In this document: positions 10,643-41,851 of the stretch, piece after piece
How the letters are laid out: every line of letters starts with the position of its first letter
How positions within the stretch are numbered: the stretch's first letter is position 1
Assembly (NCBI GenBank): GCA_017464225.1
Contig: JAFUDW010000119.1
Location: 1 to 42,965, forward strand
DNA: 42,965 nucleotides
Direction of reading: 5' to 3'
DNA from: Clostridia bacterium
GTDB taxonomy: Bacteria; Bacillota_A; Clostridia; Christensenellales; Aristaeellaceae
Notes under the pieces: generated by a model
Databases searched by the model: none
Told to the model about the DNA's origin: nothing
The model's input: only the letters and a program-made list of their open reading frames with translations
Made by a program: the position numbers and the translations under genes

Positions 10643-10684
10643 GGCAGGGAATGTACGGTTCCGGGGAGTATACATTCGCCTGCC
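10643..10684. repeat. Inverted repeat between hemW and the ger operon
   Basis: GGCAGGGAATGTA (10643-10655) pairs with TACATTC and CCTGCC (10671-10684) with one bulged G. It lies in the divergent spacer 10594-10839, about 50 bases upstream of hemW and 100 bases before the sigma-G-like promoter. It has no T run, so it is not a normal terminator; it may be an operator or a leader structure. The rest of the spacer shows nothing else I recognise. Confidence 0.45.
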
Positions 10685-10786
10685 GGGAAGGGTTAAACCG
10701 ACAAAAGCCGCAGCATATGCCTCTGTGCGACGGTTTTATTATAAGACGCCGGCGTAATCACGTCAAGGATTGTACCGCGGGCAAAT

Positions 10787-10816
10787 GCATAGCTTTATCC
10801 CTTCCCGCCCATACTT
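10787..10816 (+). promoter_or_regulatory. Sigma-G-like forespore promoter of the ger operon
   Basis: GCATA (10787-10791), 18 bases, CATACTT (10810-10816). The known sigma-G consensus in Bacillus is roughly GHATR, 17-18 bases, CATnHTA, so this matches the -35 fully and the -10 at six of seven positions. It lies just upstream of the ribosome site of a germinant-receptor operon, the classic target of sigma-G. No good sigma-A promoter is seen here. The leader would be short (about 17 bases). Confidence 0.6.
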
Positions 10817-10839
10817 CCATAAAAAAGGAGGTGCCTGCC

Positions 10840-12339: not shown

Positions 12340-12341
12340 TC

Positions 12342-13427: not shown

Positions 13428-14446
13428 GAAAAACGCTGTGCCTGCTGCTGTTCCTGGCCATGCTGCCGCTGCAGGGCTGCGCGCAGCGCGTCGAGCTGGC
13501 CTTTGTGGCCGTATGCCTGGGCGTGGACGCGGCGGAGGACGGCGTAACGCTCACCGTCAAATGTCCCAGCTACGGCGGCGGCTCCCGGCAGGAAGAGAAA
13601 GACGCCTATACAGTGCTCAGCGCTCAGGGCGAGGACTGGCCCCGGGCGGTGGCAGCGCTGTATGCCGCGTCGCCGGTATCGCCCCAGTTCAGCCAGCTGC
13701 GGGAGATCGTGATCAGCCGGCCATCCTTTGATATTCTGCTGCCCGAGGAGCTGCTGCGCTGCGCCGATCAGCTGCCGGGCATCCGGGTGCACGCGCTGGT
13801 GACCGTATGCCCGGGCTGCGCCGCGGACTATATTGAAGCGCTGAAGCCCGAGATCGGCAAGCGGCTGAGCAAATATCTGGATATTTCGCTGCGGCACGCG
13901 GAGGAGCAGGGCATGCTGCCCGCCACCTCGCTTTCCTGCGCGCTGCGCGATCTGAGCGGCCCCTGGCGCGATCCGGTGCTGGCGTACGCCGATACCGGCA
14001 AAGTGCCTCAAGGCGCCGCGATGGGCAGTCTGGGGATCACGCTGCTCACCTCCCGGGAGGTACAGCTCTACCGCCTCCTCCGGGGCGAAAGCCAAGCCCT
14101 GCTGCTGAAAAGCGGCGGCCGCTATTACGGCGTATCCGCCCGGGGCCGCGCCAAACGGGAAGTAACCGGCAGCACCCTGCTGCTCACCGTTCCGGTATAC
14201 ATCACCTATTCGCTCTACGACGCTCCGCCGGACGAGGAAGCCGCGAATCAGCTGCAAAGCGAGCTGCAGTCCTTTCTGCGCCGCCTGCAGGCGGCGGGCT
14301 GCGACGCCCTGGGCTTTGGCTGCGCGGCCGTCCGGGAATATGACACGCTGCCGGAATGGCTGAGCAGCGGTTGGGAAAGCCGATACCGCCGGGCCGACGC
14401 CATCGTGCGGGTGGAGGCCAGGGCCCGTCAGCAACCCCTGCAGTGA
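13424..14446 (+). CDS. Spore germination receptor C subunit (GerC lipoprotein)
   Basis: The 340-aa product begins with a lipoprotein signal peptide (basic start, hydrophobic core, lipobox LQGC with Cys19) and continues with the GerC fold, as expected for the outward-facing lipoprotein of the receptor. Recognisable pieces are the SPQFSQLREIVISR stretch (GerC proteins usually have a HxxxIxxGE-like segment here) and the C-terminal GFGCAAVREY/W region (usually D-P-G-F-G). The ATG at 13424 overlaps the B-subunit TGA (ATGA). The start of this gene marks the strongest translational coupling of the operon. An intrinsic-terminator-like hairpin follows at 14499-14538. Confidence 0.9.
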   Translation: MRKTLCLLLFLAMLPLQGCAQRVELAFVAVCLGVDAAEDGVTLTVKCPSYGGGSRQEEKDAYTVLSAQGEDWPRAVAALYAASPVSPQFSQLREIVISRPSFDILLPEELLRCADQLPGIRVHALVTVCPGCAADYIEALKPEIGKRLSKYLDISLRHAEEQGMLPATSLSCALRDLSGPWRDPVLAYADTGKVPQGAAMGSLGITLLTSREVQLYRLLRGESQALLLKSGGRYYGVSARGRAKREVTGSTLLLTVPVYITYSLYDAPPDEEAANQLQSELQSFLRRLQAAGCDALGFGCAAVREYDTLPEWLSSGWESRYRRADAIVRVEARARQQPLQ

Positions 14447-15064: not shown

Positions 15065-18000
15065 ATGCCCCAAGTAGCACGCCGCCGTCAGGAAGCCCCC
15101 CAGCGCCGCGCCCGCAGGCACGATTACCGCGCCCTGGTGCTGGTGCTCTTTCTGGCGTTTATCGTTTTCATGGTGGCCGTCAGCCCCTGGGAGCCGGTGA
15201 ACCAGGCGCTCAACGCCGACGGCACAGGCGCCGGCACCTACAAGGGCCTGGTGATCAGCGAAATCATGAGCGCAAACGGCTCGGCCCTGCCCGACGATTC
15301 CGGCAGCTTCGCCGACTGGGTGGAGGTCATGAACACCTCCGAAGAGCCCATCAGCCTCAAGGATATCACGCTTTCCGATCGGCCGGACAAGGCCAAATTC
15401 ATTTTCCCGGATCAAACCCTTTCCCCGGGCGAATGCGTGCTGGTATTCTGCGACAATACCAATCAGAACCAGATGGGCAGCGCTTATCACGCCAAATTCA
15501 AGCTGTCCTCCCTCAAGGACGCCATTTATATGTTCAACCCGGCGGGCTACGTGATCGACAGCGTGGAGATCCCCACGCTGAATACCAACGAGGCCTATGC
15601 CCGCATGGAGGACGGCCGCTTTGATATCACCTCCATGTACAGCCCCGGCTACGCCAACACCGAGGACGGCCACGTCACCTACCTGAGCCGCTACACCATT
15701 GAGGCCAACACGCTGCGCATCAATGAAATCATGGCTGCTCCCCGCAGCGGCCTGCGCGACGAGGACGGCGAGCTTTCGGACTGGATCGAACTGTACAACG
15801 CCGGAACCGAGCGCATCCAGCTCAGCGATTACGCCCTGAGCGATAACGAGGAAAAGCTGACCAAATGGTTCTTCCCCCAGGGCGCGTACATCGATCCCGG
15901 CCAATATTACATCGTGTTCTGCTCGGGCAAGGATCGCACGGGGGCCGAGACCGGATACCCCCACACCAATTTCAGCCTTTCGGCGGAGGGTGAAACCATC
16001 ACGCTGTCCAACGCCTTGGCCCAGCTGGTGGACCGTGCGGTATATGATAATCTGCCCGTGGACTGCAGCTATGGCCGCAACGACGCCACCGGCGCCTGGC
16101 AGATCTATACCTTGGCCACCCCCGGCGTTTCCAACGACGCTTCCGGCGCTGCCCGGGCCGACGAATACCTGCGCGCGCTGAACCGCACGCATGTGATCCT
16201 CAGCGAGGTCATGGCCAGCAACGATCATGTTTCCATTTTTTCGGGCTCCGATAACAAGGACTGGGTAGAGGTTTATAACGACGGCACCGACACCATTGAC
16301 CTGAGCGGTTTCGGCCTGTCGGACAACATCAACTGGCCCCGCAAATGGCAATTTCCCGCGGGCACGGTGATCTGGCCTGGGGAATACAAGCTGATCATGC
16401 TGGACGGCAAGAACGCCGTGGATACCCAGGGCGGGCTGCACGCCTCCTTTAAGCTCAGCCGGGCGGGCGGCGAAACGCTGACGCTTTCCGACGCCACGGG
16501 CTACGTGCTGGACAAGCTCTACCTGCCGGAGATCCCCACCGATTTCAGCTATGGCCGCACGCTGGGTCTGGGCGGGTTTTTTTATTATGACGCCGCCACC
16601 CCCGGCGTGATCAACGGCACGGGGTTCACCGGCTTTACGGCTGCGCCTTCCTTTGTTCAGGCGGGCGGCCTGTACGATGAAAACGTCACCGTGGCGATCG
16701 ATGTGCCCGCGGGTACGGCGGTCTACTACACGCTGGACGGTTCTGTGCCTACCGTTACGGGCGGAACGCTGTATACAGGCCCCTTTGAGATCACCGATAC
16801 GAAAGCCGTGCGCGCCCGGGCCTTTGAAAGCGGACATCAGCCCTCGGATACCGTTTCCGCCACTTACGTGCTCAAAACCTTTTTCACCCTTCCCGTGGTC
16901 TGCCTGACCGCCGATCCCGACAGCCTGTGGGACGAGAATACCGGCATCTTCGCCGCGGGCCCGGGGGTCGATCTGACCAGCTATACCCGCATTCCCTTTA
17001 AGAATCCTACGCCTACCTACCGCCGCCAGAAGGAGTCCGGGGTACGGGTGGAAGCCTATGCCGAAATGTTTGAGCAGGACGGCGCAATCGTGTTCAGCCA
17101 GGGCCTGGAGTTTGGGCTCATCGGCCAGTACAGCCTGGATATACCCCAGAAATCCATCAAGATGGTGGCCAAGGCCCGCTACGGCAATAAATATATCCAG
17201 GGCAATCCCTTCCCGGATCGGGATTTTACCGAGTACCGTTCACTGGTGCTGCGCAACAGCGGCAACGACTGCGTATGGACGCGCATGGTGGACGGCGTAC
17301 AGTCCAGGCTGGTGGATCAGGTGGAGGGCAACACCGTCATCCACCAGGCCTGGCGGCCCGTGATCGTGTACATCAACGGCATTTATTGGGGGCATTACAA
17401 CCTGCGGGAGCGGGTCAACGAATACTTTGTGGCCCAGCATGAAGGCCTGGACCTGAGCCAGGCTAAATCCATCGATGTGCTGGAGGGCAGCGGCACCACC
17501 AAGGATAAGGTCAACAACGGCAGCAACGCCGAATGGAAGGCTTTCATCACCGCCGTCAAATCCATGAACCCAGCCCGCAATCCCGAGGATCTGCAATACA
17601 TCCTGGATCGCATCGACCTGGACAACTATTTTGATTACGTGATCTATGAAAGCTATTTCGCCAATACCGACTCGGGCAACATCCGTTTTTACAAAGTGCC
17701 CGGCGGCAAATGGAAATGGATCATGTACGATATGGATTACGGCCTGTTCAACGCCAATTCCAACGGCATCGCCAACTATCTGAATCCCAAGGGCCACGGC
17801 GCCAACGACGATATTGACAATACCCTGATTTTGAAGCTGCTGGAAAACAGCGACATGCTGGATCGGTTCCTGATCCGCTTCGGCGAGATCTTCCGCACGC
17901 TCAATACGGATGCCATGCTCACCGAGATCGACCGCTGCTACGCCCTGCTGGAGCCCGAAATGGATATGCATTTTGACCGATGGGCTTCCGAAAACCTCAA

Positions 18001-18271
18001 AAACATTTCCTTTGACCAGCCCCAGACCAAGGACGGCTGCCTGCGCTGGTGGCGCAGCCGCGTGGAACGCCTGCGCAATATCGCCCGCAAGCGTCCCGCT
18101 TATTGCTGGCGGCAGGTGGCCGAGTGGTTTAGCCTTTCGGACAAGGTGATGGAAAGCTATTTCGGCCCCATCCCGCTGATTCCCCCGGAGGCCACCTGGG
18201 ATTCCGAAAAGCAGCAGGACACCGGCATGACCTATCTGTACGGCGCCAACTGGCAAAGCCTGTACCAATAA
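15065..18271 (+). CDS. Membrane-anchored CotH-family kinase with three lamin-tail domains and a CHB_HEX_C domain
   Basis: The 1068-aa product has a basic N-terminus, one membrane segment (about residues 22-40), and a large external part. Three lamin-tail (LTD) domains begin near 61, 215 and 375, each with an SEIM/NEIM/SEVM start, a DWVE/DWIE step and a LSD turn. Next is a chitobiase-C-like beta domain (about 523-604, YYTLDGSVPT), then the CotH domain (about 608-1010) with GIYWGHYNLRERVNEYF and WIMYDMDYGLF, the atypical-kinase Asp motif. B. subtilis CotH phosphorylates spore coat proteins. The ATG follows AGCAAGGAG. It is first in an operon with a DUF4956 membrane protein and a VTC polymerase. 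Confidence 0.9.
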   Translation: MPQVARRRQEAPQRRARRHDYRALVLVLFLAFIVFMVAVSPWEPVNQALNADGTGAGTYKGLVISEIMSANGSALPDDSGSFADWVEVMNTSEEPISLKDITLSDRPDKAKFIFPDQTLSPGECVLVFCDNTNQNQMGSAYHAKFKLSSLKDAIYMFNPAGYVIDSVEIPTLNTNEAYARMEDGRFDITSMYSPGYANTEDGHVTYLSRYTIEANTLRINEIMAAPRSGLRDEDGELSDWIELYNAGTERIQLSDYALSDNEEKLTKWFFPQGAYIDPGQYYIVFCSGKDRTGAETGYPHTNFSLSAEGETITLSNALAQLVDRAVYDNLPVDCSYGRNDATGAWQIYTLATPGVSNDASGAARADEYLRALNRTHVILSEVMASNDHVSIFSGSDNKDWVEVYNDGTDTIDLSGFGLSDNINWPRKWQFPAGTVIWPGEYKLIMLDGKNAVDTQGGLHASFKLSRAGGETLTLSDATGYVLDKLYLPEIPTDFSYGRTLGLGGFFYYDAATPGVINGTGFTGFTAAPSFVQAGGLYDENVTVAIDVPAGTAVYYTLDGSVPTVTGGTLYTGPFEITDTKAVRARAFESGHQPSDTVSATYVLKTFFTLPVVCLTADPDSLWDENTGIFAAGPGVDLTSYTRIPFKNPTPTYRRQKESGVRVEAYAEMFEQDGAIVFSQGLEFGLIGQYSLDIPQKSIKMVAKARYGNKYIQGNPFPDRDFTEYRSLVLRNSGNDCVWTRMVDGVQSRLVDQVEGNTVIHQAWRPVIVYINGIYWGHYNLRERVNEYFVAQHEGLDLSQAKSIDVLEGSGTTKDKVNNGSNAEWKAFITAVKSMNPARNPEDLQYILDRIDLDNYFDYVIYESYFANTDSGNIRFYKVPGGKWKWIMYDMDYGLFNANSNGIANYLNPKGHGANDDIDNTLILKLLENSDMLDRFLIRFGEIFRTLNTDAMLTEIDRCYALLEPEMDMHFDRWASENLKNISFDQPQTKDGCLRWWRSRVERLRNIARKRPAYCWRQVAEWFSLSDKVMESYFGPIPLIPPEATWDSEKQQDTGMTYLYGANWQSLYQ

Positions 18272-18281
18272 CGCGTTTCCC

Positions 18282-18310
18282 TTGCGCTTTGCGCCTGTTC
18301 CCTGTATAAT
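18282..18310 (+). promoter_or_regulatory. Promoter in front of the DUF4956-VTC pair
   Basis: TTGCGC (18282-18287), 17 bases, TATAAT (18305-18310), 11 bases after the CotH stop. The pair can therefore be expressed separately from CotH. Confidence 0.6.
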
Positions 18311-18338
18311 ATTTTTATTGATCTACGGAGGTACGCCC

Positions 18339-19037
18339 ATGAACCTGATCCCCGCTCTGACCAGTCTCAGCAAATCCGATATTGTATCCAGCGATTTCTG
18401 GGCCTCCCAGTTTTCCTCCTTCACCCCGGCCAACGTGATGCTGGTGCTGATCTTCGCCCTGATCACCGGCATCGTCATTTCGCTGGTATACCGCATTACC
18501 TACCGCGGCGTGCTCTACAGCCCGCAGTTTTCCATGGTGCTGATCATGCTGGTGCTGGTCACGGCCCCGGTGGTCATGGCCATCGGCAGCAACGTGGCCC
18601 TTTCAATGGGCATGGTGGGCGCGCTTTCCATTGTGCGCTTCCGCACAGCCATCAAGGAGCCGCTGGATACCTGCTATATGTTCTGGGCCATTACCATGGG
18701 CATATTGCTCGGCGCCAAGCAGTACGCCATCGCTCTGGTGGTGGTGGTGGGCATCGGCGCCATATTGATCCTTCTGTCCTTCGTGCATTTCCGCCATCCC
18801 AACGCCTATCTGCTGGTGCTGCACTACGATGTGATCGCCGAGGCCGATATTGAAACCGAGCTGCGCCGCAACGCGCATTTCCGCCGCATCCGCTCCAAGA
18901 CCGTTACCCGCGGCGGCGCGGAGATGACCGTGGAAGTCCAGCTCAACAACCGCTCGGACATCGTGCGCAACATGCTGGCCATCGCGGGCGTGCACGACGC
19001 TACCCTGGTGGCCTGCCAGAATGAAACAGGAGCCTGA
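18339..19037 (+). CDS. DUF4956 family membrane protein
   Basis: The 232-aa product has about four membrane segments between residues 30 and 155 and a cytoplasmic C-terminal domain of about 75 residues. The conserved core is SMGMVGALSIVRFRTAIKEP, the signature of DUF4956. The C-terminal part looks like a small alpha/beta domain. The ATG at 18339 follows ACGGAGG. DUF4956 genes are frequently found beside VTC-domain and CotH genes, as here. The function is not established; a role as membrane partner or conduit for the neighbouring polyphosphate polymerase, comparable with the membrane domain of the yeast VTC complex, is my inference. Confidence 0.85.
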   Translation: MNLIPALTSLSKSDIVSSDFWASQFSSFTPANVMLVLIFALITGIVISLVYRITYRGVLYSPQFSMVLIMLVLVTAPVVMAIGSNVALSMGMVGALSIVRFRTAIKEPLDTCYMFWAITMGILLGAKQYAIALVVVVGIGAILILLSFVHFRHPNAYLLVLHYDVIAEADIETELRRNAHFRRIRSKTVTRGGAEMTVEVQLNNRSDIVRNMLAIAGVHDATLVACQNETGA

Positions 19038-19039
19038 TT

Positions 19040-19744
19040 ATGGCAGTTCCGCTTCGGCATGAGCTCAAGTTTTTCATATCGCCCCTGCAATACCAGGTGC
19101 TCTCGCGCACGCTGCGCGCCGTGCTGAACCCCGATCCTCACGGCGATGAGAACAACCAGTATCATATCCGTTCGCTGTACTTTGATACCGTGAACGACGA
19201 CGCCCTGTACGATAAAATCAACGGTACGGCCAACCGCGATAAATACCGCATCCGCATCTATAATTTCAGCGACAGCATGATCCGCCTGGAATGCAAAAGC
19301 AAGTTCCGCGATCTGATCAGCAAGCGCTCTGTCGCCATCTCCCGCGATCTGGCGGAGCAGCTTATCTCCGCCGATCCCACGGGCTTGGACGCCACAGCGT
19401 CCGGCCTGGTCAGCGACGTATTCCGGGAAATGCGCACCAATCTGCTCCATCCGGTGGTCATTGTGGACTATCTGCGGGAAGCCTACCTGCATCCCGCGGA
19501 GGAAGTGCGCATCACCTTCGATATGCAGCTGCGCAGCGGTCTGGGCAGCGTGGATATGTTCAACCCCCACGTTCCCACCGTGCCGCCCTTCGATCACGAT
19601 GAGATCATCCTGGAGGTCAAATACAACCAGGTGCTCCCGCCCTACATCGCCAACCTGCTCACCTATGCGCTCAGGGATGGCGCCGCCCGCTCGGCCATCA
19701 GCAAATACGTGTGGTGCAGGCGGTTTGAGTTTAAGGATTTCTGA
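19040..19744 (+). CDS. VTC-domain polyphosphate polymerase-like protein
   Basis: VTC domains form a tunnel enzyme that makes polyphosphate from ATP. The 234-aa product is a single VTC domain with the family's basic tunnel motifs in order: RHELKF (residues 5-10), SLYFDT, KYRIRIYNF, LECKSK, VDYLREAY, RITFD, ILEVKYN and SKYVWCR. The Lys/Arg of these motifs and the Glu of LEVKY correspond to substrate and metal ligands in yeast Vtc4. No membrane segment or SPX domain is present. The ATG lies 2 bases after the DUF4956 stop, with AGGAGCC upstream, so the two are co-translated. Activity as a true polyP polymerase is untested here. Confidence 0.88.
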   Translation: MAVPLRHELKFFISPLQYQVLSRTLRAVLNPDPHGDENNQYHIRSLYFDTVNDDALYDKINGTANRDKYRIRIYNFSDSMIRLECKSKFRDLISKRSVAISRDLAEQLISADPTGLDATASGLVSDVFREMRTNLLHPVVIVDYLREAYLHPAEEVRITFDMQLRSGLGSVDMFNPHVPTVPPFDHDEIILEVKYNQVLPPYIANLLTYALRDGAARSAISKYVWCRRFEFKDF

Positions 19745-32469: not shown

Positions 32470-33042
32470 TTATACCAAGCCGTTGAAGCCCATGAAGGCG
32501 ATGGCCATAAGCCCGGCAGTGACCAGACTGATGGGGAAGCCCTTCATGCACTCGGGGATCTTGCTGCTTTCAAGCCGCTCGCGCACGCCCGCCATCAGCA
32601 CGATGGCCAGCAGGAAGCCCAGGGCCGAGAAGGTGCCGTTCAGCACGCTGAAAAGCATGTTGTAGCCTTCCTTCACGTTCAGGGTGGCCACGCCCAGCAC
32701 CGCGCAGTTGGTGGTGATCAGGGGCAGATAGATGCCCAGGGCGCTGTACAGGGCAGGCATGGACTTTTTCATGAACATTTCCACAAACTGCACCAGGCCC
32801 GCGATGATCAGGATGAAGGCGATGGTCTGCATGTACTCCAGCTGCAGGGGCACAAGCACCCAGGTATTGACCATGTAGGCGAACAGGCTGGCGATGGTCA
32901 TAACGAAGGTCACGGCGATGCCCATGGAAGCGGCGGTTTCCACCTTGCTGGATACGCCCAGGAAGGGGCAGCAGCCCAGGAATTTATTGAAGATAAAGTT
33001 ATTTGTCAGGATGCAGCTGATCATGAACAGGATCACATTCAT
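32470..33042 (-). CDS. rnfA: Rnf complex subunit RnfA
   Basis: A six-helix membrane protein of 190 aa that pairs with RnfE to bind the intramembrane [2Fe-2S] cluster. Characteristic stretches: NNFIFNKFLGCCPFLGVS at the N-terminus, holding the conserved LGxCPFLG Cys, and LPLITTNCAVLGVA (about 105-118), with the second Cys. The start ATG overlaps the rnfE stop by one base (TAATG), so translation is coupled. Confidence 0.96.
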   Translation of the reverse strand: MNVILFMISCILTNNFIFNKFLGCCPFLGVSSKVETAASMGIAVTFVMTIASLFAYMVNTWVLVPLQLEYMQTIAFILIIAGLVQFVEMFMKKSMPALYSALGIYLPLITTNCAVLGVATLNVKEGYNMLFSVLNGTFSALGFLLAIVLMAGVRERLESSKIPECMKGFPISLVTAGLMAIAFMGFNGLV

Positions 33043-33662
33043 TATTTAGCAGCTCCCTTCTTGCGGTTGGTCAGGGCGTTGATGATGCCCAGCAGCAGGC
33101 CGAACACCAAGAAACCGCCCGCGGGCAGGATCATCAGCAGCATGGGCTGGTAGGAAGCGCCCAAAAGGCTGATGCCAAACACGGAACCGTTGCCGGCCAG
33201 CTCGCGGATGCAGCCGATCAGGGTCAGCGCCAGGGTGAAGCCCAGGCCCATGCCGATGCCGTCAAAGGCGGAGGCCACCACAGGATTCTTGCTGGCAAAC
33301 GCCTCGGCGCGGCCCAGGATGATGCAGTTGACCACGATCAGCGGCAGGAAGATGCCCAGGCTTTCATACAGCGAGGGCAGGAATGCCTGCATCACCAGCT
33401 GGATAATGGTCACGAACATGCAGATGACCACGATAAAGCAGGGAATACGCACCTTATCCGGGATCACCTTGCGCAGCGCTGAAATAACGATGTTGCTGCC
33501 CAGCAGCACGAAGGTGGCCGCCGCGCCCATGCCTAGCCCGTTGATGGCGCTGGTGGTAACGGCCAGGGTGGGACAGGTGCCCAGCACCAGGCGGAAGGTG
33601 GGGTTTTCGGTCACGATGCCGTTCATCAGCACCTTGCCGAGGTTTTGTTTCTTTTCGCTCAT
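33042..33662 (-). CDS. rnfE: Rnf complex subunit RnfE
   Basis: The 206-aa membrane protein homologous to RnfA in inverted topology. NPTFRLVLGTCPTLAVT (the LGxCPxLAVT Cys motif, about residues 20-36) and LPLIVVNCIILGRAEA (about 108-123) supply the two cysteines from each side of the membrane for the shared [2Fe-2S] cluster. It starts only 3 bases after the rnfD stop. In the common order rnfCDGEAB, rnfG would stand in that gap; here it is absent. Confidence 0.96.
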   Translation of the reverse strand: MSEKKQNLGKVLMNGIVTENPTFRLVLGTCPTLAVTTSAINGLGMGAAATFVLLGSNIVISALRKVIPDKVRIPCFIVVICMFVTIIQLVMQAFLPSLYESLGIFLPLIVVNCIILGRAEAFASKNPVVASAFDGIGMGLGFTLALTLIGCIRELAGNGSVFGISLLGASYQPMLLMILPAGGFLVFGLLLGIINALTNRKKGAAK

Positions 33663-33665
33663 GGC

Positions 33666-34580
33666 TTATTTTCCCTCCTTCGTGGCTTTGGTGTGGCCGT
33701 AGATGCGCTGCGCCGGAATGCGGTCAAACAGCGGAGCGGCGATATTCATGAGCAGGATGGCATAGGTCACGCCTTCGGGATAGGAGCCGAACTTGCGGAT
33801 CAGCACCACAATAACGCCGATACCCACAGAGTACAGGATGCGGGCGAATTGGGTCATGGGGGTGGTCACATAGTCGGTGGCCATATACACCGCGCCAAAG
33901 AGCAGGCCGCCGGACAGCACTGTGGTCAGCGGATCATAGCCCAGCGCCCAGCCCAGCAGACAAGCGCTGGCCAGCGAAATCACCGGGATCTCCCAGCGGA
34001 TGGTGCGGGTGAACAGCAGCCAGGCAAAGCCGATGAGGATGGCGATCTTGCAGGTTTCGCCCACAGCGCCCGTCACGTTGCCCAGCAGCAGATCGGCATA
34101 GGACGCGCCGGACAGCAGCGGGGTGGCGCCGGACACGGCGTCAAACCTGCCTACGTTGTAGCCGCTGGTCATCAGCGCAGGCCAGGAAGCCAGCAGCACG
34201 GCACGGGCAGCCAGGGCAGGGTTCAGGAAGTTATCGCCGATGCCGCCAAAGAGCTGCTTGACCACCATGATGGCGAAGAAGCTGCCAATGACCAGCATCC
34301 ACCAGGGCGCCGAAGGCGGCACGATGAGGCCGATGAGCAGGCCGGTCACCACAGCGGACAGATCGTAAATGCGGATCTTTTTATGCGCCAGCTTCTGCCA
34401 GATGAACTCCGCAGCCACAGCGGAGACCACGCTGACGCAGATCACCAGGGCGGCGCGCCAGCCAAAGTAGTAAATACCGGCGATCACGCAGGGCAGCAGC
34501 GAAATGATCACATTGAGCATCAGGCGCTGCGTATTGTCCTTGCTGCGCACATGGGGCGCGGATGAAAGAATCAGACTCAT
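33666..34580 (-). CDS. rnfD: Rnf complex subunit RnfD (covalent FMN membrane subunit)
   Basis: The 304-aa membrane protein has about eight to ten helices and the flavinylation motif DAVSGATPL (about residues 155-163), where FMN is attached to Thr by ApbE on the outer face. Other conserved parts are NPALAARAVLLASWP and ATDYVTTPMT, near the riboflavin/FMN sites. I choose the ATG at 34580, which overlaps the rnfC TGA (ATGA); the open frame upstream runs through rnfC in another frame. RnfD passes electrons to the FMN of RnfG, here presumably the multi-FMN protein at 36738-40175. Confidence 0.95.
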   Translation of the reverse strand: MSLILSSAPHVRSKDNTQRLMLNVIISLLPCVIAGIYYFGWRAALVICVSVVSAVAAEFIWQKLAHKKIRIYDLSAVVTGLLIGLIVPPSAPWWMLVIGSFFAIMVVKQLFGGIGDNFLNPALAARAVLLASWPALMTSGYNVGRFDAVSGATPLLSGASYADLLLGNVTGAVGETCKIAILIGFAWLLFTRTIRWEIPVISLASACLLGWALGYDPLTTVLSGGLLFGAVYMATDYVTTPMTQFARILYSVGIGVIVVLIRKFGSYPEGVTYAILLMNIAAPLFDRIPAQRIYGHTKATKEGK

Positions 34581-35902
34581 TTGGCAGCCGCCTCCTTTTT
34601 CGCCTGTTCGGCAATCTTCTGTTTCGCGATCCGGAAGGAAGGCGTCAGCCACCGGCGAGCGGGGCAGATGAAGGCGCAGGCGCCGCACAGCATGCAGTCC
34701 ATCACGTGCTTCTTCTTGCAGATATCCCACTTTTCGGCGTCGGCGAATATCTTCATATCATAGGGATTGAGGCCGATAGGGCAGGCATCCACGCACTTGC
34801 CGCAGCGGATGCAGGGATCCTCCTCGTCGCTGACCGCCTCTTCCCGGGTCATCACCACGATGCCGTTGGTGGATTTGGACATGGGCAGCTGGTCGTTTGG
34901 CAGGCACATGCCGGTCATGGCGCCGCCAAAGAAGATCTTGCCGGGATCGGTGCTGTAGCCGCCGCATTCGCCGATGATATCCTCGGTGATGGTGCCGATG
35001 CGCAGCCGCAGGTTGGCGGGAGAGCGAACGGCGCCGGTGACGGTACATACGCGTTCGATCACAGGCTTTCCGTCGATGACGGCGTCGGCAATGGCGGCGC
35101 AGGTGCCCACGTTCAGCACCACGCAGCCGCAGTCGATGGGCAGACCGCCCGAGGGCACCTCGCGGCCGGTGAGCACCTTGATCAGCTGCTTCTCACCGCC
35201 CTGCGGGTACTTTGTCTTCATCACCTGCACGCGCACGCCCTGGCGGCCCTGGCAGGCCTTTTCCATGGAGGCGATGGCGGCGGGCTTGTTATCCTCGATG
35301 CCGATAATGCCCTGCTCCACGTTCAGCGCACGCATGGCGGCCCTCAGGCCGTCCACCACGCGGGTGGCGTTCTCCTGCATCAGCCGATCGTCGCAGGTGA
35401 TATGCGTTTCGCATTCCGCGCCGTTGGCCAGAATGTACTCGCACTTTTTGCCCGGCGCGATGCTCAGCTTCACATGAGTGGGGAAGCTGGCGCCGCCCAT
35501 GCCGCAGATTCCGGCCGCCTTAATGGCAGGCAGGATCAGCGCGGGATCAACGGTTTCCACGTTGCCAAGAGGATGCAGTTCCTCCCATTCATCCTGGAAA
35601 TCGTTCTTGATGGTGACGCTCTGCACCATATCGCCGGTGAGGTAGGCGATGGCGTCCACCGCCACCACCTCGCCGGATACGCTGGCGTGCACCGGGATGC
35701 CCAGGCCGCCCACGGCCTCGCCGATCACCTGGCCCACTTTCACATGGTCGCCCTTTTTGACACAGGGCTTGGAGGGCGCGCCGATGTTCATGTTCATGAC
35801 GATCTGAACGGTATCGGACACGAAATCCCGGATGGCAAGCGCCTGTGTCGGCCGCTTGCTGCCGTGCGCCGGATGGACGCCTCCGCGGAATGTTGCTTTC
35901 AA
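34577..35902 (-). CDS. rnfC: Rnf complex subunit RnfC (NADH-binding Fe-S flavoprotein)
   Basis: RnfC carries the NAD(H) site. The protein (441 aa) begins with FRGGVHP (family FxGGIHP), has GMGGASFPTHVKL (nucleotide/FMN site, about residues 129-141), EPLLxxDxxLM-like ECETHITCDDRLM, the SLBB domain, and two ferredoxin clusters CIRCGKCVDACP and CMLCGACAFICP. I use the TTG at 35902, 8 bases after AAAGGTGG; a GTG at 35914 would lie inside that ribosome site. It is followed by rnfD with an ATGA overlap. An internal promoter may lie just upstream (35936-35963). Confidence 0.95.
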   Translation of the reverse strand: MKATFRGGVHPAHGSKRPTQALAIRDFVSDTVQIVMNMNIGAPSKPCVKKGDHVKVGQVIGEAVGGLGIPVHASVSGEVVAVDAIAYLTGDMVQSVTIKNDFQDEWEELHPLGNVETVDPALILPAIKAAGICGMGGASFPTHVKLSIAPGKKCEYILANGAECETHITCDDRLMQENATRVVDGLRAAMRALNVEQGIIGIEDNKPAAIASMEKACQGRQGVRVQVMKTKYPQGGEKQLIKVLTGREVPSGGLPIDCGCVVLNVGTCAAIADAVIDGKPVIERVCTVTGAVRSPANLRLRIGTITEDIIGECGGYSTDPGKIFFGGAMTGMCLPNDQLPMSKSTNGIVVMTREEAVSDEEDPCIRCGKCVDACPIGLNPYDMKIFADAEKWDICKKKHVMDCMLCGACAFICPARRWLTPSFRIAKQKIAEQAKKEAAAK

Positions 35903-35935
35903 CTGCGATCCCACCTTTTAATCAAAGTTGTTGTT

Positions 35936-35966: not shown

Positions 35967-36404
35967 TTACACGTCGGGAGCCTCGGTATCGACGCTGTCC
36001 ACCAACAGCACCACGTCCACCCGATTGGGCAGGCAGATCACGTGAGTGCCCAGGATGCGCTGATTCCAGTTTTCCCGGGTGACGGAGCCTTGGTAGATGC
36101 AATCCTGGTTCTTGCAGGTGGAGGACTGCATAAAGAAGCCCCCTTCCACCATGCGGATCACATTAATGCTGCCGTCCTCCTGCGTGACCGTCAGATCCTC
36201 CCCGGGCTTCAGCGGTGAAGTCATATACAGGCTGCCATCCACATATACGGCGATCTCGTCCCGGGCGGTCTGTCGATTGGTCTTGATCTTATACCCTGCC
36301 AGCACGCCCACCGCCAGCAGCGCCAGGCACAGGATCAGGAGCACATCTCTTCGCTTAATCTTTCTTTCCTCCGCTCTGTTTCTCATGGCTTTCGGCCTTT
36401 TCAT
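35967..36404 (-). CDS. NusG domain II-containing membrane-anchored protein
   Basis: The product has a basic N-terminus, one membrane segment (about residues 21-41) and an external NusG-II-like beta domain with CKNQDCIYQG (two Cys five apart) and NRVDVVLL at the end, the pattern of small NusG_II proteins often found beside rnf or FMN-binding genes. Function unknown. The start is uncertain: the ATG at 36404 (145 aa) has GGGAG 7 bases upstream but overlaps the DUF1622 gene by 50 bases; another ATG is at 36386; and GGAGG sits 8 bases before an ATT at 36359 that overlaps the upstream TAA and would give about 130 aa. Confidence 0.78.
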   Translation of the reverse strand: MKRPKAMRNRAEERKIKRRDVLLILCLALLAVGVLAGYKIKTNRQTARDEIAVYVDGSLYMTSPLKPGEDLTVTQEDGSINVIRMVEGGFFMQSSTCKNQDCIYQGSVTRENWNQRILGTHVICLPNRVDVVLLVDSVDTEAPDV

Positions 36405-36708
36405 TCTTGATCTCCCAATGGATCAGGAAGGTCATGGCCGCGCGCAGCAGCACGATGGCGCCGGCGATGATCAGCTCGCTCATATCGCGGACCACCACGG
36501 TACGCAGCACCTCGCTGCCCAGCTTGAATTCCAGCGCCAGGGCGATGGCCTCGCCCAGATGCAGGCGGATGTTTTCCTTATTGCCCCGCAGCAGGTTGAT
36601 CACCGCGCGGATAGCGCCGCCCACGATGATCACCGAACCGATCAGCTCCAGCAGGATGATGCCGTACTTGACCAGCGTTTCAAACGCGGTTTCGATCCAT
36701 GTGAACAT
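36355..36708 (-). CDS. DUF1622 family membrane protein
   Basis: The 117-aa protein has three hydrophobic segments (about 13-40, 57-70 weaker, 77-96) and the conserved DUF1622 core: LELIGSVIIVGGAI, LGEAIALALEFKLGSEVLRT and DMSELIIAGAIVLLRAAMTFLI. Its position between the multi-FMN RnfG-like protein and the NusG-II protein suggests a part in the same redox assembly, but the family has no established function. The ATG follows AAGGAGACGG. The gene end overlaps the NusG-II gene. Confidence 0.88.
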   Translation of the reverse strand: MFTWIETAFETLVKYGIILLELIGSVIIVGGAIRAVINLLRGNKENIRLHLGEAIALALEFKLGSEVLRTVVVRDMSELIIAGAIVLLRAAMTFLIHWEIKNEKAESHEKQSGGKKD

Positions 36709-36737
36709 AAGCCGTCTCCTTCCCTTTGGCTTTTGCG

Positions 36738-39700
36738 TTACTCAGCGGATTCAAGCACCAGATTGACGCCGCGCGTCACGGCCTGGGCGGAGAAGGTAGC
36801 GCCCGTGATTGCGTCAACGCTTTCAATGGGAGCAGCCGCACCCTGGAACTGGTTCAGGAAGGCTTCGCCGCGCACCATATCCACGTAGAGCGCGTCCTCC
36901 TTGGCGTCGGTATCGCCCACGGTCACGGCGGCCACGGCGCCGTTTTCAATGGTCACGGTCAGTTCGATCGCGCCGTTCATGCCGTTGACGCTGGTCTTAT
37001 AGATACCGTCCCGGTAGCTGTGCGCCTCGGGAGCGGGCGCTTCCGGCGCGGCGGTCTTTTCAGGCACGGTCACGCCCAGCTGGGCAAACACGCTGTTCAC
37101 CGCCTCGGTGACGGCGTTGCTGGAGAAGGTGGCTCCGGTGATCACCTGCACATCCTCCGCCGGCGCATCCTGGCCGATGTACTGGCTCAAGAAAGCTTCA
37201 TCCTGCACCTTGGCCACATAAGGCGCGTTCATAGCGTCGGCGGCGTCGGCAACGGTCACGGCGGTCACCACGGCGTTTTCATCCATGGTCACGGTCACAT
37301 CCAGATCGTCCAGGAAGCTGCGGGCGGATACGGTGTACTCGCCAGCCTCGGATTGCGCGGCTTCTTCACTTGCTTCAGCTTCGGCGGGGGCGGCGGCAAA
37401 GCCGTTCACCGCCTCGATCACAGCCGTACTGCTGATGGTGGCTCCGGCCACGGTATCCGCGCTGACGGGCAGCGCCTTGCCGGCGAACTGCGCCAGGAAG
37501 GCGTCGTCCAGCTTGGCCAGGTATTCCTTGTCCATATCGGAATCGCTATCGCCCAGCGTAACGGCCTTGACGGTGCCGTCGTCGTTCAGCTCAACGGTTA
37601 CCGGGAAGGTGCCGGTCAGGCCGCTGGCCTTGGCAACGCCGCCGGATACGGCCTTCTCCTCGGGCGCGGCTTCCTGGGCGGGCGCTTCCTCCGCGCTTTC
37701 CGCCGCCGCGTCTCCGCTGAGCGCCTGGTTGACGGCGGTCAGCACAGCATTGCTGGAGAAGGTGGCTCCGGTCACGGCGTCGATTTGATCCAGGGGCGCT
37801 TTCGCGCCGATGAACTGATTCAGGAAGCCTTCGTTATCCTTTACTTTGGCAACATAGGGAGCGTCGGTATCCGAGCTGCTCTCCTGCACGGCTACGCTCT
37901 CCACGGCGCCGCCCTGTACGGTCACAGTCACGTTCACCATGTCGATAAAGCCCTGGGCCGAAACGCTGTAAACGCCGTCGGCCACCGGCTTGGTTTCTTC
38001 CTTGGTTTCCTCCTGCGCAGGCTCCTCGGCGGGAGCGGTGATGCCCAGCTTGTCAAAAGCCTGGTTCACGCAGTCGATCACCGCTTTGCTGGCAAAGGTA
38101 GCGCCAGCCACCACGTCGACCTCGCCCTCGGCGATGGGAGCGGTTTTGCCGATGAACTGATCCAGGAAGGCCTGATTGTCACCCACCAGCTTCACGAACA
38201 TGGCGTCGCTGGCAGAGTCGCTTTCAGCCACCTCCACCTGAGCGATGGCGCCGTTTTCCACGGTCACGGTCACACGCACGGGATCGGTGAAGCCCTGGGC
38301 GGTGAGTTCAAACACGCCGTCCAGCGCGGCAGGCTGAGCTTCGGCCGCAGCCTTGCTCTCATTTTCTTCCGTCCCGGAAGCGAAGCTGTTCACAGCCTCA
38401 ATGATGGCGCTGCTGCTGACGGTAGCGCCGCTGGCAGCGTCGATGCCGGAAACCGGCAGGCTCTTGCCAATGAACTGGCCCAGGAAAGCGTCGGTATTGG
38501 CCAGCGCCAGGAAGGATTTGTCCATATCGGAATCGCTGTCGCCCAGCGTGACGGCCTTCACGGTGCCGTCCTCGTTCAGCTCAACGGTCACCGGGAAGGT
38601 GCCGGTCAAGCCACTGGCCTTCACGGTATTGCCAGCTTCCTCGGCGGGAGCGGCAGTCTCGGCGGCGAAGCTGTTCACGGCGTCGATCACAGCCTTGCTG
38701 CTGATGGTAGCCCCGGCCACGGCATCCACGCTGACGGGCAGCGCCTTGCCGGCGAACTGCGCCAGGAAGGCGTCGTCCAGCTTGGCCAGGAAGTCCTTAT
38801 CCATATCGGAATCGCTGTCGCCCAGCGTGACGGCCTTCACGGTGCCGTCCTCGTTCAGCTCAACGGTCACCGGGAAGGTGCCGGTCAGGCCGCTGGCCTT
38901 CACAGTGTTGCCAGCTTCCTCGGCGGGAGCGGCAGGCGCTTCGGTGGGCGCGGGCTCTTCCACGATGCCCTGGCTCTCGTTCCAAGCAGCGTTCACAGCG
39001 CTGATCACGCCCTTGCTGCTGATGGTAGCGCCGGTGACCAGGTCAATATCGGCCTCGGCCACGTTGCCCGCGGTGCCGATGAACTGCGCCAGGAACCGGG
39101 CGTTGTCCTTCACCTGGCCCAGGAAAGGCGCGTCGTCAGCGGTGCTGGGATCGCCCACCTCAATGCCGGTGACCGCGGCGTTTTCATCCACAGAAATGGT
39201 CACGTCAAAGGTACCGGTCAGACCCTTGCCCTGGGCGGTAAAGGTATCGGCGCCCTCGGGGATGGCCACATCGGGCACGTCGGCCTCGGCGGCAGCCTGG
39301 GCCGCGTAAGCGGCGGGATCATTGACGAACAGCAGCACCTTGCTCACGGCGCTGTTCACAGAAGAGGAAGATACGGTAGCGCCGGAAACGGTATCCAGCG
39401 CGCCGGCTTCCACGGCGGTCTGCCCCACAAACTGATTCAGGTAATCGGCGTTGCCCTGCACGCGGGACAGGTAGCTGATATCGTTAGCCGATTCGGTATC
39501 CAGCACCTCAACGGCCACCACAGCGCCGCCGTCATCCACGGTGACGACCACCGGGAAGGGGCCGCTGACGCCCTGGGCGGTGGTACCGTAACGGTTGTCG
39601 CCCAGCTCCTCAATAGCCACCACGGGCTCCTTGAGCTTGATGCCGGCCACGTCGGCGATGTACTTGGCGGTCTCGTTGACGCCGCGGATCACAGCGCTGG

Positions 39701-40175
39701 ACGTGATGGTCGCCGCCGTGATAGCGTCGATCTCGCCGCCGTTTTTGCTCAGATCCACGGGATAGGTCTTGCCCGCAAACTGCTCATAGAAGGCAGGCTC
39801 CTTTGATTTGGCGCCCAGACCGGCGGTCTCGCTGAAATTGGAGCCGCCCACGCGCACGCCGGACAGCGTGCCTTCGCCGTCCATGCCCACGGTCACCTCC
39901 ACCGGGCCGCCAAAGCCGGTCACGGTGCCTACGGATACGTAGCCCACGGCGCTGCCGTCCGCGTCCACGCCCTTGAACACCTCGGTTTCACCCTCGGCCG
40001 CGATCTGCTCAAAATCCGCCGCCTGGGGCAGCAGCTCCTGGCGGACGGCCACGGCCTTTTCGGCCTCCTGCGCGGCGATGCGGTCTTTTGTGCCGTTGTA
40101 CGTCGCGCCGAGGGCCAGAGCGGCCACCAGCGAAATGACGGTCAGCACGATCCATGCGGGCAATTTCTTACTCAT
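36738..40175 (-). CDS. Giant RnfG-like protein with ten predicted covalent-FMN domains
   Basis: The 1145-aa protein has one N-terminal membrane segment (about residues 7-25), an RnfG-like first domain (35-180, FMN motif AITAAT with Thr156), then nine FMN-binding domains of about 100 residues each. Their ApbE target motifs are GAT with Thr at 267, 384, 490, 585, 693, 805, 913, 1016 and 1127, each followed by the usual Ser-rich turn (SSS, SSK, ASK, SSN). Ala/Glu/Pro-rich linkers join them. Normal RnfG is about 200 aa with one FMN. The ATG at 40175 follows GGAGG by 8 bases and overlaps the FAD synthetase gene. It likely replaces the missing rnfG and forms a long outward flavin chain; electron transfer along it is inference. 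Confidence 0.92.
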   Translation of the reverse strand: MSKKLPAWIVLTVISLVAALALGATYNGTKDRIAAQEAEKAVAVRQELLPQAADFEQIAAEGETEVFKGVDADGSAVGYVSVGTVTGFGGPVEVTVGMDGEGTLSGVRVGGSNFSETAGLGAKSKEPAFYEQFAGKTYPVDLSKNGGEIDAITAATITSSAVIRGVNETAKYIADVAGIKLKEPVVAIEELGDNRYGTTAQGVSGPFPVVVTVDDGGAVVAVEVLDTESANDISYLSRVQGNADYLNQFVGQTAVEAGALDTVSGATVSSSSVNSAVSKVLLFVNDPAAYAAQAAAEADVPDVAIPEGADTFTAQGKGLTGTFDVTISVDENAAVTGIEVGDPSTADDAPFLGQVKDNARFLAQFIGTAGNVAEADIDLVTGATISSKGVISAVNAAWNESQGIVEEPAPTEAPAAPAEEAGNTVKASGLTGTFPVTVELNEDGTVKAVTLGDSDSDMDKDFLAKLDDAFLAQFAGKALPVSVDAVAGATISSKAVIDAVNSFAAETAAPAEEAGNTVKASGLTGTFPVTVELNEDGTVKAVTLGDSDSDMDKSFLALANTDAFLGQFIGKSLPVSGIDAASGATVSSSAIIEAVNSFASGTEENESKAAAEAQPAALDGVFELTAQGFTDPVRVTVTVENGAIAQVEVAESDSASDAMFVKLVGDNQAFLDQFIGKTAPIAEGEVDVVAGATFASKAVIDCVNQAFDKLGITAPAEEPAQEETKEETKPVADGVYSVSAQGFIDMVNVTVTVQGGAVESVAVQESSSDTDAPYVAKVKDNEGFLNQFIGAKAPLDQIDAVTGATFSSNAVLTAVNQALSGDAAAESAEEAPAQEAAPEEKAVSGGVAKASGLTGTFPVTVELNDDGTVKAVTLGDSDSDMDKEYLAKLDDAFLAQFAGKALPVSADTVAGATISSTAVIEAVNGFAAAPAEAEASEEAAQSEAGEYTVSARSFLDDLDVTVTMDENAVVTAVTVADAADAMNAPYVAKVQDEAFLSQYIGQDAPAEDVQVITGATFSSNAVTEAVNSVFAQLGVTVPEKTAAPEAPAPEAHSYRDGIYKTSVNGMNGAIELTVTIENGAVAAVTVGDTDAKEDALYVDMVRGEAFLNQFQGAAAPIESVDAITGATFSAQAVTRGVNLVLESAE
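37462..37631 (-). repeat. Near-identical FMN-domain repeat, copy 1 (domain 8)
   Basis: 170 bases that match 38731-38900 with only scattered changes (for example CTATCG for CTGTCG). Both encode the end of one domain motif region and the SGLTGTFPVTVEL..GTVKAVTLGDSDSDMDK segment. Confidence 0.8.
38522..38656 (-). repeat. Near-identical FMN-domain repeat, copy 2 (domain 5)
   Basis: 135 bases almost identical to 38801-38935, including the linker for PAEEAGNTVKASG. High DNA identity, beyond protein identity, indicates recent duplication or gene conversion. Confidence 0.8.
38731..38935 (-). repeat. Near-identical FMN-domain repeat, copy 3 (domain 4)
   Basis: 205 bases that overlap both other copies: 38731-38900 matches 37462-37631, and 38801-38935 matches 38522-38656. 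Confidence 0.8.
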
Positions 40176-40773
40176 TGTATCTTCCTCCAAGCAATGCCTC
40201 TTCCCGGGGGGAAAGAGGGCGATTGAGCATTTCCTCCGCCCGACGGCGGTTGTTTTCTGCAAGGCTGGCGCGGATGGCGCTGCTGGACACCAGCTGTCCG
40301 TCCGGCAGGCACACGGGCGGCACCACGGTGAGCCCGATGCCCGCCTCCCGGCAAAGCTGCTTCATCAGGCGGGCGTCCCCCCGGGCGCGGCGTCCAAAGT
40401 GGTAATGGAACCCGATCACGATGTGTCGGGCGTTCAGCCGCTCCAGCAGCAGCTCCCGGAAAAACTCCTCCGGGGAACGGGCGGCGATTTCCGGCGTAAA
40501 GGGGCTGCTGATCACGGTATCAACGCCGCATTCTCCCATGAGCGCGGCCTTCTCTTCCAGATCTGTCAGCACCGGACAGGGCTTGCTCCCCAGCACGCCG
40601 GCCGGGGGCGTTTCAAATGTAAAGGCGCAGGGCGTCAGCCCCTTTTCCCCCGCGGCCCGCACCGTGGCCGCCAGGAGCGCTCTGTGCCCCAAGTGCACGC
40701 CGTCAAAGGTGCCCAGCGCCACCGCGGCGGGCGGCATGGGCGGCGCGCAGTCGCTCAGCGATATCAGACGCAT
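40168..40773 (-). CDS. Single-domain FAD synthetase (FMN adenylyltransferase, RibF N-terminal domain)
   Basis: The 201-aa protein matches the N-terminal half of bifunctional RibF: GTFDGVHLGHRALL (residues 21-34, nucleotidyltransferase HxGH-type site), FHYHFGRRARGD, and VSSSAIRASL. It stops after this domain; the riboflavin-kinase half (about 100 aa) is missing and no frame continues it. It would therefore make FAD from FMN and ATP but not FMN from riboflavin. FAD is the flavin donor of ApbE, encoded just upstream, so the gene is well placed to feed protein flavinylation. The ATG follows GAGGAGG; it overlaps the multi-FMN gene by 8 bases. Confidence 0.88.
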   Translation of the reverse strand: MRLISLSDCAPPMPPAAVALGTFDGVHLGHRALLAATVRAAGEKGLTPCAFTFETPPAGVLGSKPCPVLTDLEEKAALMGECGVDTVISSPFTPEIAARSPEEFFRELLLERLNARHIVIGFHYHFGRRARGDARLMKQLCREAGIGLTVVPPVCLPDGQLVSSSAIRASLAENNRRRAEEMLNRPLSPREEALLGGRYNE

Positions 40774-40783
40774 TCAAACCTCC

Positions 40784-41851
40784 TCAGCGATCGGTGGAGG
40801 TCGCTCCCTGGCTTTGCAGCGTGGAGGCCAGTCCGTCTGTAAAGTACACCGAGCCGTCGCTTAGCACCCAGTAAGCTTCCACGTCGGGCAAGCTGTCCAC
40901 AAAGGCGCGTCCCTGCTCATAGGGCATCAGGAAAAGCGCTGTGCTCAGGGCGTCGGCATAGCCGCTGTCGGGCGTAACCACGGTGACCTGGCGCATGAAG
41001 TCCGAGGGGAACAGCGTATCCGGATCGATGATATGATGGTAATATACGCCGTCCACCACGTAATAGCGCTGGTAATCGCCGCTGGTCACCACCGACATAT
41101 CGGTGAGATAAGCCACGTCCTTTATGGTATTTGCGCCCAGGATCAACGCGTCCTCAGGGTTCTGGATGCCCACGCCCCAGCGGCTTCGGCCATCCCGCGG
41201 CTGATTGCCGCAGCGAACGTTTCCCCCTGCATTTATAATATAGGAAGGCATGTCGCTTGTCAACATCCAGGAGGCCACAATTTCGGCGGTGTATCCCTTC
41301 GCTACGGCTCCCAGATCCAGCGACAGCAGGGGATCGGCAAAGTAAACGGTGCCGGCCTGCGCGTCGATGATCACATCGTCAAAATCGCAGTGTTCGGAAA
41401 GGGTTTTCAGCACTTCCGGATCGGGCACCGCCACGCCCTCGGCGCGATAGTCGTGCCAGCAGCGCAGCACAGCGCCCATGGCCACGTTGACCCGGCCCAG
41501 GAGCCTTGGCTGCAGCTCCTTCATATACAGCAGCAGATCGATGAGCTCGGGCTCTGCCTCCGTGGGCTCGCGCCCCGCGTTGGCGTTCACATAGTACAGG
41601 TTGCGCACGCCCTCGTAGGCATTGTAGCCGTCGTATATCTGATGGTAGCGCAGGAACATGGCCTTGGCCGGTTCATAGACGGCGTCAAAGGCTTCCTGGC
41701 TTTCGGCGTAGCCCATGATGGTGATCACGGTATCAAAGGCGTCGTAGAAGGCGGCTGAATACTTGTCCAGCTTTTTTTCCCCGGCGGCGCAGCCCGCGCA
41801 CAGCAGGCAAAAGGCCAGCGCCAGGCATAAAAAACGATGCTTGAATTTCAT
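40784..41851 (-). CDS. apbE: ApbE-family FAD:protein FMN transferase lipoprotein
   Basis: ApbE transfers FMN from FAD to Thr/Ser in target motifs outside the membrane. The 355-aa product has a lipoprotein signal (hydrophobic run ending CAGC, Cys21; Cys at -3 is unusual) and the family motifs DLGAVAKGYTAE, YIINAGGNVRCG, DMSVVTSGDYQRYY, HHIIDPDTLFPS (usually HIIDPxTG) and DSGYADALSTALF (Mg-binding Asp/Thr). It is the first gene of the flavin/Rnf operon, 10 bases before the FAD synthetase. Its likely targets, RnfD and the ten GAT motifs of the giant RnfG-like protein, are in the same operon. The ribosome site is weak (GGGATGAAAGAG). Confidence 0.93.
   Translation of the reverse strand: MKFKHRFLCLALAFCLLCAGCAAGEKKLDKYSAAFYDAFDTVITIMGYAESQEAFDAVYEPAKAMFLRYHQIYDGYNAYEGVRNLYYVNANAGREPTEAEPELIDLLLYMKELQPRLLGRVNVAMGAVLRCWHDYRAEGVAVPDPEVLKTLSEHCDFDDVIIDAQAGTVYFADPLLSLDLGAVAKGYTAEIVASWMLTSDMPSYIINAGGNVRCGNQPRDGRSRWGVGIQNPEDALILGANTIKDVAYLTDMSVVTSGDYQRYYVVDGVYYHHIIDPDTLFPSDFMRQVTVVTPDSGYADALSTALFLMPYEQGRAFVDSLPDVEAYWVLSDGSVYFTDGLASTLQSQGATSTDR

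Follow-up and report, generated by a model that had tools for sequence, protein, structure and literature searches.

We find that the RnfG subunit of the Rnf complex encoded in a 42,965-nucleotide stretch of DNA from a Clostridia bacterium (assembly GCA_017464225.1, contig JAFUDW010000119.1; this whole stretch is the window) is a 1145-residue protein with ten FMN_bind domains (FMN, flavin mononucleotide). We think it rather likely that the nine domains behind the first form a flexible flavin tail that drains electrons from the Rnf complex of this cell outward as a side exit. Ten stretches of the protein match the Pfam family FMN_bind (PF04205; E 1.3e-95, far beyond chance), and residues 9-173 align to positions 2-185 of the 187 in the NCBIfam rnfG model TIGR01947 with 191.2 bits, compared to a curated cut-off of 102. 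Hydrophobic residues at about 7-28, read by eye, make up an N-terminal anchor helix. The membrane anchor, RnfG-like first domain and nine extra FMN_bind domains claimed in a first-pass annotation are thus borne out. Membership in RnfG follows from the full-model score and from rnfC, rnfD, rnfE, rnfA and rnfB encoded on the same strand; the typical RnfG traits, one FMN_bind domain, about 200 residues and a gene between rnfD and rnfE, are absent and are not required by TIGR01947. The ten PF04205 stretches agree with the definition of a multi-flavinylated RnfG as an RNF-cluster RnfG with more than one FMN_bind domain (PMC8238504; this and the other papers cited are represented here by excerpts).

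The coding strand is the minus strand (40175..36738), and the ATG start is preceded by GGAGG and overlaps the stop of the gene for a flavin adenine dinucleotide (FAD) synthase. A plus-strand gene at these positions is ruled out by an in-frame stop, the long plus-strand open reading frame at 36726-39806 looks like the mirror of the coding strand, and a scan for promoters and terminators gave consensus matches only. Pfam matches of the protein to TonB_C are weak, with no single stretch passing alone, and its 1145 residues contain no CxxCH motif. The gene and its domains are:

36738..40175, minus strand: multi-FMN RnfG, 1145 residues, N-terminal anchor helix, ten FMN_bind domains
39651..39956, minus strand: domain 1, RnfG-type FMN_bind, IDAITAAT, candidate Thr156 (codon 39708-39710); TIGR01947 over residues 9-173; PDB matches 7zc6_G, 9eri_G
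39321..39608, minus strand: domain 2, FMN_bind, SGAT, candidate Thr267 (codon 39375-39377)
38970..39272, minus strand: domain 3, FMN_bind, TGAT, candidate Thr384 (codon 39024-39026)
38655..38936, minus strand: domain 4, FMN_bind, AGAT, candidate Thr490 (codon 38706-38708); amino acid identity 76% to domain 5, 80% to domain 8
38364..38666, minus strand: domain 5, FMN_bind, SGAT, candidate Thr585 (codon 38421-38423)
38046..38351, minus strand: domain 6, FMN_bind, AGAT, candidate Thr693 (codon 38097-38099)
37707..38006, minus strand: domain 7, FMN_bind, TGAT, candidate Thr805 (codon 37761-37763)
37383..37682, minus strand: domain 8, FMN_bind, AGAT, candidate Thr913 (codon 37437-37439)
37074..37373, minus strand: domain 9, FMN_bind, VQVITGAT with Gln for the motif Asp, candidate Thr1016 (codon 37128-37130)
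36744..37037, minus strand: domain 10, FMN_bind, TGAT, candidate Thr1127 (codon 36795-36797)

A candidate attachment Thr is present in all ten domains (residues 156, 267, 384, 490, 585, 693, 805, 913, 1016 and 1127), at a spacing that is regular, as first described, although it spans 95-117 residues and not 92-118. The first-pass annotation had counted ten FMN sites and a complete GAT motif in each extra domain; GAT is indeed found in all nine, but the surrounding motif is complete in fewer. Six of the ten sites match [ST]GA[ST], and five (domains 2, 3, 5, 7 and 10) have the full ApbE motif Dxx[S/T]GA[S/T]; domain 9 has Gln in place of Asp, domains 4, 6 and 8 have Ala in place of the first Ser or Thr (AGAT), and domain 1 has Ala in place of Gly (TAAT). 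In one model protein, a Gly-to-Ala change in the flavinylation motif reduced flavinylation to about 50% and an Asp-to-Ala change had a minor effect (PMC12052999). Because these effects are partial or minor, it is plausible that all ten Thr residues remain candidate flavinylation sites. We dropped the idea that domain 1 is unflavinylated owing to its TAAT, which also occurs in 4 of the 14 single-domain RnfGs encoded between rnfD and rnfE (L048, L052, L054 and L056); this comparison leans on 14 loci of the order, and in a separate set of 120 matches 11 gave no motif and many of the 120 are fragments of longer genes.

The attachment Thr is also retained in relatives. A protein search returned 308 proteins at E <= 1e-20, of which 120, including the window protein, were listed, and these were searched with a profile built from the ten domains of the window protein. 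Thr occupies the site in 863 of 864 aligned domains, with a single Ile (875 domain matches, 11 of them without a residue there), and the only better-kept position is the Ala before it (864 of 864). As the 120 proteins are related, the 863 Thr residues are not 863 independent events.

Domain 1 resembles RnfG in both sequence and predicted fold, its best PDB matches being the RnfG chains 7zc6_G and 9eri_G; the domains after it are similar to the small FMN_bind domain of CbFMN4 (8p2b_A). Ala, Pro and Glu make up 66% of the 142 residues in the nine linkers. In an AlphaFold model from a 30-row alignment (mean predicted local distance difference test, pLDDT, 73.8; predicted template modelling score, pTM, 0.29), the linkers are of low confidence from the domain 3-domain 4 linker on, and seven of the nine coincide with low-pLDDT gaps. 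The low pTM implies no fixed arrangement of domains, so that no distances between flavin sites were derived. The model fits domains that are beads on a string with flexible linkers, a picture described for other multi-flavin proteins (PMC11334425, PMC10339131), and in this respect the external flavin chain proposed in the first pass is consistent with the prediction. One such FMN_bind domain measures 26 x 26 x 44 angstrom (PMC10339131); by our own estimate, ten domains and their linkers, stretched, could reach several tens of nanometres. We regard hops of electrons from one moving domain to the next as more probable than conduction along a fixed wire.

The gene stands in an operon with apbE and the remaining rnf genes, and the earlier claim that it is linked to Rnf and ApbE is confirmed. 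The genes run apbE, FAD synthase domain, rnfG, DUF1622, NusG_II, rnfC, rnfD, rnfE, rnfA, rnfB, such that rnfG is upstream of rnfC, behind apbE and the FAD synthase, and not between rnfD and rnfE:

40784..41851, minus strand: apbE, FAD:protein FMN transferase, 355 residues; PF02424 E 1.1e-59; lipoprotein-like N-terminus LLCAGC (lipobox read by eye)
40168..40773, minus strand: FAD synthase domain, 201 residues, PF06574; no flavokinase family among its Pfam matches
36355..36708, minus strand: DUF1622 small protein, PF07784 E 3.8e-18
35967..36404, minus strand: NusG domain II protein, PF07009 E 5.4e-14; N-terminal hydrophobic stretch (read by eye)
34577..35914, minus strand: rnfC, TIGR01945 493 bits
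33666..34580, minus strand: rnfD, TIGR01946 291 bits; its own flavinylation motif DAVSGAT
33042..33662, minus strand: rnfE, TIGR01948 253 bits; directly after rnfD, no rnfG between
32470..33042, minus strand: rnfA, TIGR01943 253 bits
31663..32454, minus strand: rnfB, TIGR01944 91 bits

The complete order recurs in four loci of relatives (L001-L004). Five others (L005-L008, L010) have apbE, FAD synthase and rnfG, the sequence stopping within rnfG or shortly beyond it; L009 carries apbE, NusG_II, rnfG and rnfCDEAB, with FAD synthase and DUF1622 absent at that locus; and L011 (apbE, NusG_II, rnfG), L012 (FAD synthase, rnfG) and L013 (NusG_II, FAD synthase, rnfG) end there. By comparison, rnfG lies between rnfD and rnfE in all seven control loci (L014-L020), and a single-domain rnfG does so in 14 of 16 retrieved loci of the order. 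ApbE scores above cut-off once in each of 13 genomes, on the rnfG contig in 11, and PF06574 likewise matches once in each, again on the rnfG contig in 11. We dropped the description of the FAD synthase as dedicated; because none of the 13 genomes has another PF06574 match, it is probably the general one of the cell. Our literature search returned no paper holding both DUF1622 and Rnf. Elsewhere in the window are a CotH kinase with lamin tail domains, beside DUF4956 and VTC domain genes (15065-19744), and GerA- and GerAC-type spore germination genes that hint at a spore former (10651-14446).

In the genomes of 13 relatives (G001-G013, metagenome assemblies that may be incomplete), the multi-domain protein is the only match to RnfG over the full length. 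A single rnfD and a single such rnfG match occur per genome, in 13 of 13; the match in G012 is just under cut-off, and that in G007 falls into two parts of the same frame.

From the domains, motifs, operon and conservation, and from the lack of another full-length RnfG match in these 13 genomes, all read computationally, we infer flavinylation, the direction of flow, the acceptors and the physical mode of transfer as follows. Tandem duplication would have lengthened the RnfG subunit of the cell's Rnf by nine FMN_bind domains, which make up a flexible tail. The first domain would do the normal RnfG job, its FMN shuttling between RnfA/E and RnfD. The tail domains would be flavinylated by the ApbE of the same operon, using FAD from the neighbouring FAD synthase, and would extend outside the membrane as a string tethered to it. 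Electrons from domain 1 would then hop along the tail through collisions of the loosely linked domains and pass from it to acceptors beyond the cytosol, which would be secreted flavin reductases in some relatives and other acceptors elsewhere. Rnf would in this way gain a side exit for electrons besides nicotinamide adenine dinucleotide (NAD+).

The number of domains varies widely among relatives. Counting only Thr-bearing matches, since split matches inflate the raw count (up to 13), the 120 listed proteins have 5-12 domains each, and ten of them, including the window protein, have ten or more. Judged from these sequences, the array is variable in length, and ten is one of the values it takes. 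The closest relative among the matches listed (L002) is 97% identical in domain 1, yet has six domains; because these map best to domains 1, 2, 3, 5, 9 and 10, the ends of the array look stable and the middle appears to expand. In two relatives (P0025, P0051), a further FMN_bind unit appears lodged inside domain 1.

From the order of the nearest relative (G002) we drew 297 genomes, of which 78 have an rnfG match at 1e-20. An rnfG frame of at least 340 residues was found in 25 of the 78, G002 and 24 that were retrieved. Not every long frame is multi-FMN: 12 of the 24 are RnfD-RnfG fusions and 12 are multi-FMN (3-9 domain matches, some cut by contig ends), giving multi-FMN RnfG in 13 of the 78 rnfG-bearing genomes. 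The other 53 have frames of 178-321 residues; the 16 retrieved all have one domain, and two frames of about 300 residues (G158, G086) may have two. The fusions (L022-L024, L026, L027, L032-L034, L036, L040, L044, L045) have frames of 519-570 residues in which the RnfG match begins at residue 327-380, and ten of the twelve, those present in the tree described next, form one supported group. A nine-domain RnfG frame of 1068 residues (L041) stands beside NusG_II and apbE with no rnfCDEAB within 18 kb; the rnfD of that genome is on another contig.

In a tree of 59 first domains, three multi-FMN RnfGs encoded between rnfD and rnfE (L038, L039, L043) fall among single-domain RnfGs, and a single clade of all 26 multi-FMN rows is rejected (approximately unbiased test, P 0.00185). 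The tree omits L021, L027 and L045, which have no full-length domain 1 match, and L007 and L041 have long branches. Because a single clade is rejected, multi-FMN RnfG requires, on this tree, more than one gain, or a gain and losses.

The genome of the nearest relative (G002) contains two complete and one cut protein with FMN_bind and FAD_binding_2 Pfam matches (L062, L065, L066), whose starts are signal-peptide-like as read by eye. With L065 as query, and counting as positive an FMN_bind and an FAD part in one frame (match table read by eye), such reductases are encoded in 10 of the 25 multi-FMN genomes (G002, G007, G009, G011, G019, G095, G051, G228, G248, G206) and in 0 of 53 short-RnfG genomes (Fisher P 2.6e-6); 17 of these 53 match the query solely through its FAD part. 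The query itself came from G002, and the window protein had led to G001-G013; when the evenly drawn genomes are taken alone and G002 is left out, the counts are 6 of 12 multi-FMN versus 0 of 53 short-RnfG genomes. FMN_bind also precedes the FtsX part of an FtsX-type permease in three relatives (L067:838-2376 in G002, L068:1325-2785 in G001, L069:2104-3564 in G003), and L071:1928-4447 encodes a pair of FMN_bind domains ahead of BspA-type leucine-rich repeats.

Several observations weigh against a side exit. The reductases are not exclusive to multi-FMN genomes, being present in 5 of 12 RnfD-RnfG fusion genomes (G280, G270, G195, G113, G300), four of which have other FMN_bind proteins with CxxCH motifs beside rnf. 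Just 3 independent pairs fall on supported branches, the sign test is not significant, and kinship may explain the co-occurrence. A second rnfD is present in three multi-FMN genomes of the order (G130, G145, G309), two of which (G130, G309) also have a second, short RnfG. At domain 1, TAAT departs from the strict motif, and the model is poor around the site (residues 116-127, 144-147 and 153-156 below pLDDT 50). No wall-anchor or wall-binding family is among the Pfam matches of the protein, and because of this a reach through the wall would depend on its length. Finally, 15 of the 25 multi-FMN genomes show no FMN_bind/FAD_binding_2 reductase, and in G004 all nine FMN_bind matches lie within RnfG. 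These last two findings, together with the retained Thr and an array length that changes easily, as expected if capacity outweighs geometry, would also suit a tail that is an electron buffer, storing electrons exchanged with domain 1 and smoothing swings in reduced ferredoxin and NAD+ with no outside acceptor. We consider such a buffer unlikely: about twenty electrons per complex would be a small store, and the 10 genomes with secreted-type reductases need a source of electrons for them. Beside the rnf genes of some fusion loci (L026, L036, L040, and L034), frames of 984-1153 residues downstream of rnfB have FMN_bind domains and four CxxCH motifs; these may be the multi-heme type mentioned in PMC8238504.

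A tail that is mainly a structural or surface feature, serving in binding, spacing or flavin display with redox flow minor, would agree with linkers rich in Ala, Glu and Pro that are modelled at low confidence, and with no acceptor or wall anchor identified; it is improbable, as it hardly explains a Thr kept in nearly every aligned domain and an apbE in the same operon. That the repeat number is partly an assembly artefact is more improbable still: domains 4, 5 and 8 are, by their identity, recent copies (domains 4 and 5 share 160 nt at 93%, domains 4 and 8 share 250 nt at 91%) and contig ends often interrupt related genes, but separate assemblies also give arrays of 5-12 Thr-bearing domains, and domains 6, 7, 9 and 10 share no more than 51% identity among themselves, which leaves at most the copy number of domains 4, 5 and 8 in doubt.

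Beyond this cell, where we favour the flavin tail as a side exit, we tentatively raise the possibility that Rnf in this clostridial order became a branched complex on more than one occasion. Its RnfG tail of many flavins would be the principal route by which electrons reach secreted FMN/FAD reductases or further acceptors outside the cell, and the ion pump would drive extracellular redox chemistry, or be fed by it, with no need of cytochromes. If electrons do leave Rnf along the tail, these clostridia would link the pump to outside acceptors through protein-bound flavins, not hemes, and the likely repeated gain together with the reductase co-occurrence provides concrete partners to test for a class that the literature excerpted here regards as unclear in function.

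RNF clusters with multi-flavinylated RnfGs have been reported, as have multi-FMN proteins with up to 13 sites, and a second electron path to extracytosolic acceptors has been proposed as the role of such RnfGs (Meheust et al. 2021, PMC8238504). The window gene belongs to this kind, with which it shares several FMN_bind domains and the RNF-cluster setting; the view in the first-pass annotation that it is unusual is weakened by this report and by the 119 listed relatives, nine of which have at least ten domains. A subset in Christensenellales has multi-heme domains, while the window protein has no CxxCH, and the passages of PMC8238504 at hand describe no single gene of this sort. In the literature covered, in part, by our search, we met no experimental study of a multi-FMN RnfG, which is no proof of absence; the sole-RnfG status, relocated operon, rejected single clade and reductase co-occurrence were likewise not met there, the supplementary cluster tables of PMC8238504 excepted. 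Canonical RnfGs (C. tetanomorphum 7zc6_G, A. woodii 9eri_G, A. vinelandii 8rb9_G) align with the anchor helix and first FMN_bind domain over residues 8-173, but have 189-229 residues and one FMN (PMC12174285), compared to ten domains here. The canonical gene lies between rnfD and rnfE, whereas the window rnfG is upstream of rnfC. PplA of Listeria is an extracellular FMN_bind protein for electron export, in agreement with the name of its NCBIfam model NF041941, from which the window protein is distant (33.8 bits versus a cut-off of 325). SaFMN3 and CbFMN4 likewise have repeated FMN_bind domains on flexible linkers, and covalent FMN was demonstrated in them after co-expression with ApbE and FAD synthetase; they have three and four domains, respectively, and are not described as Rnf subunits in the excerpts of that paper (PMC10339131), while domain 1 of CbFMN4 (8p2b) matches domain 6 of the window protein by sequence.

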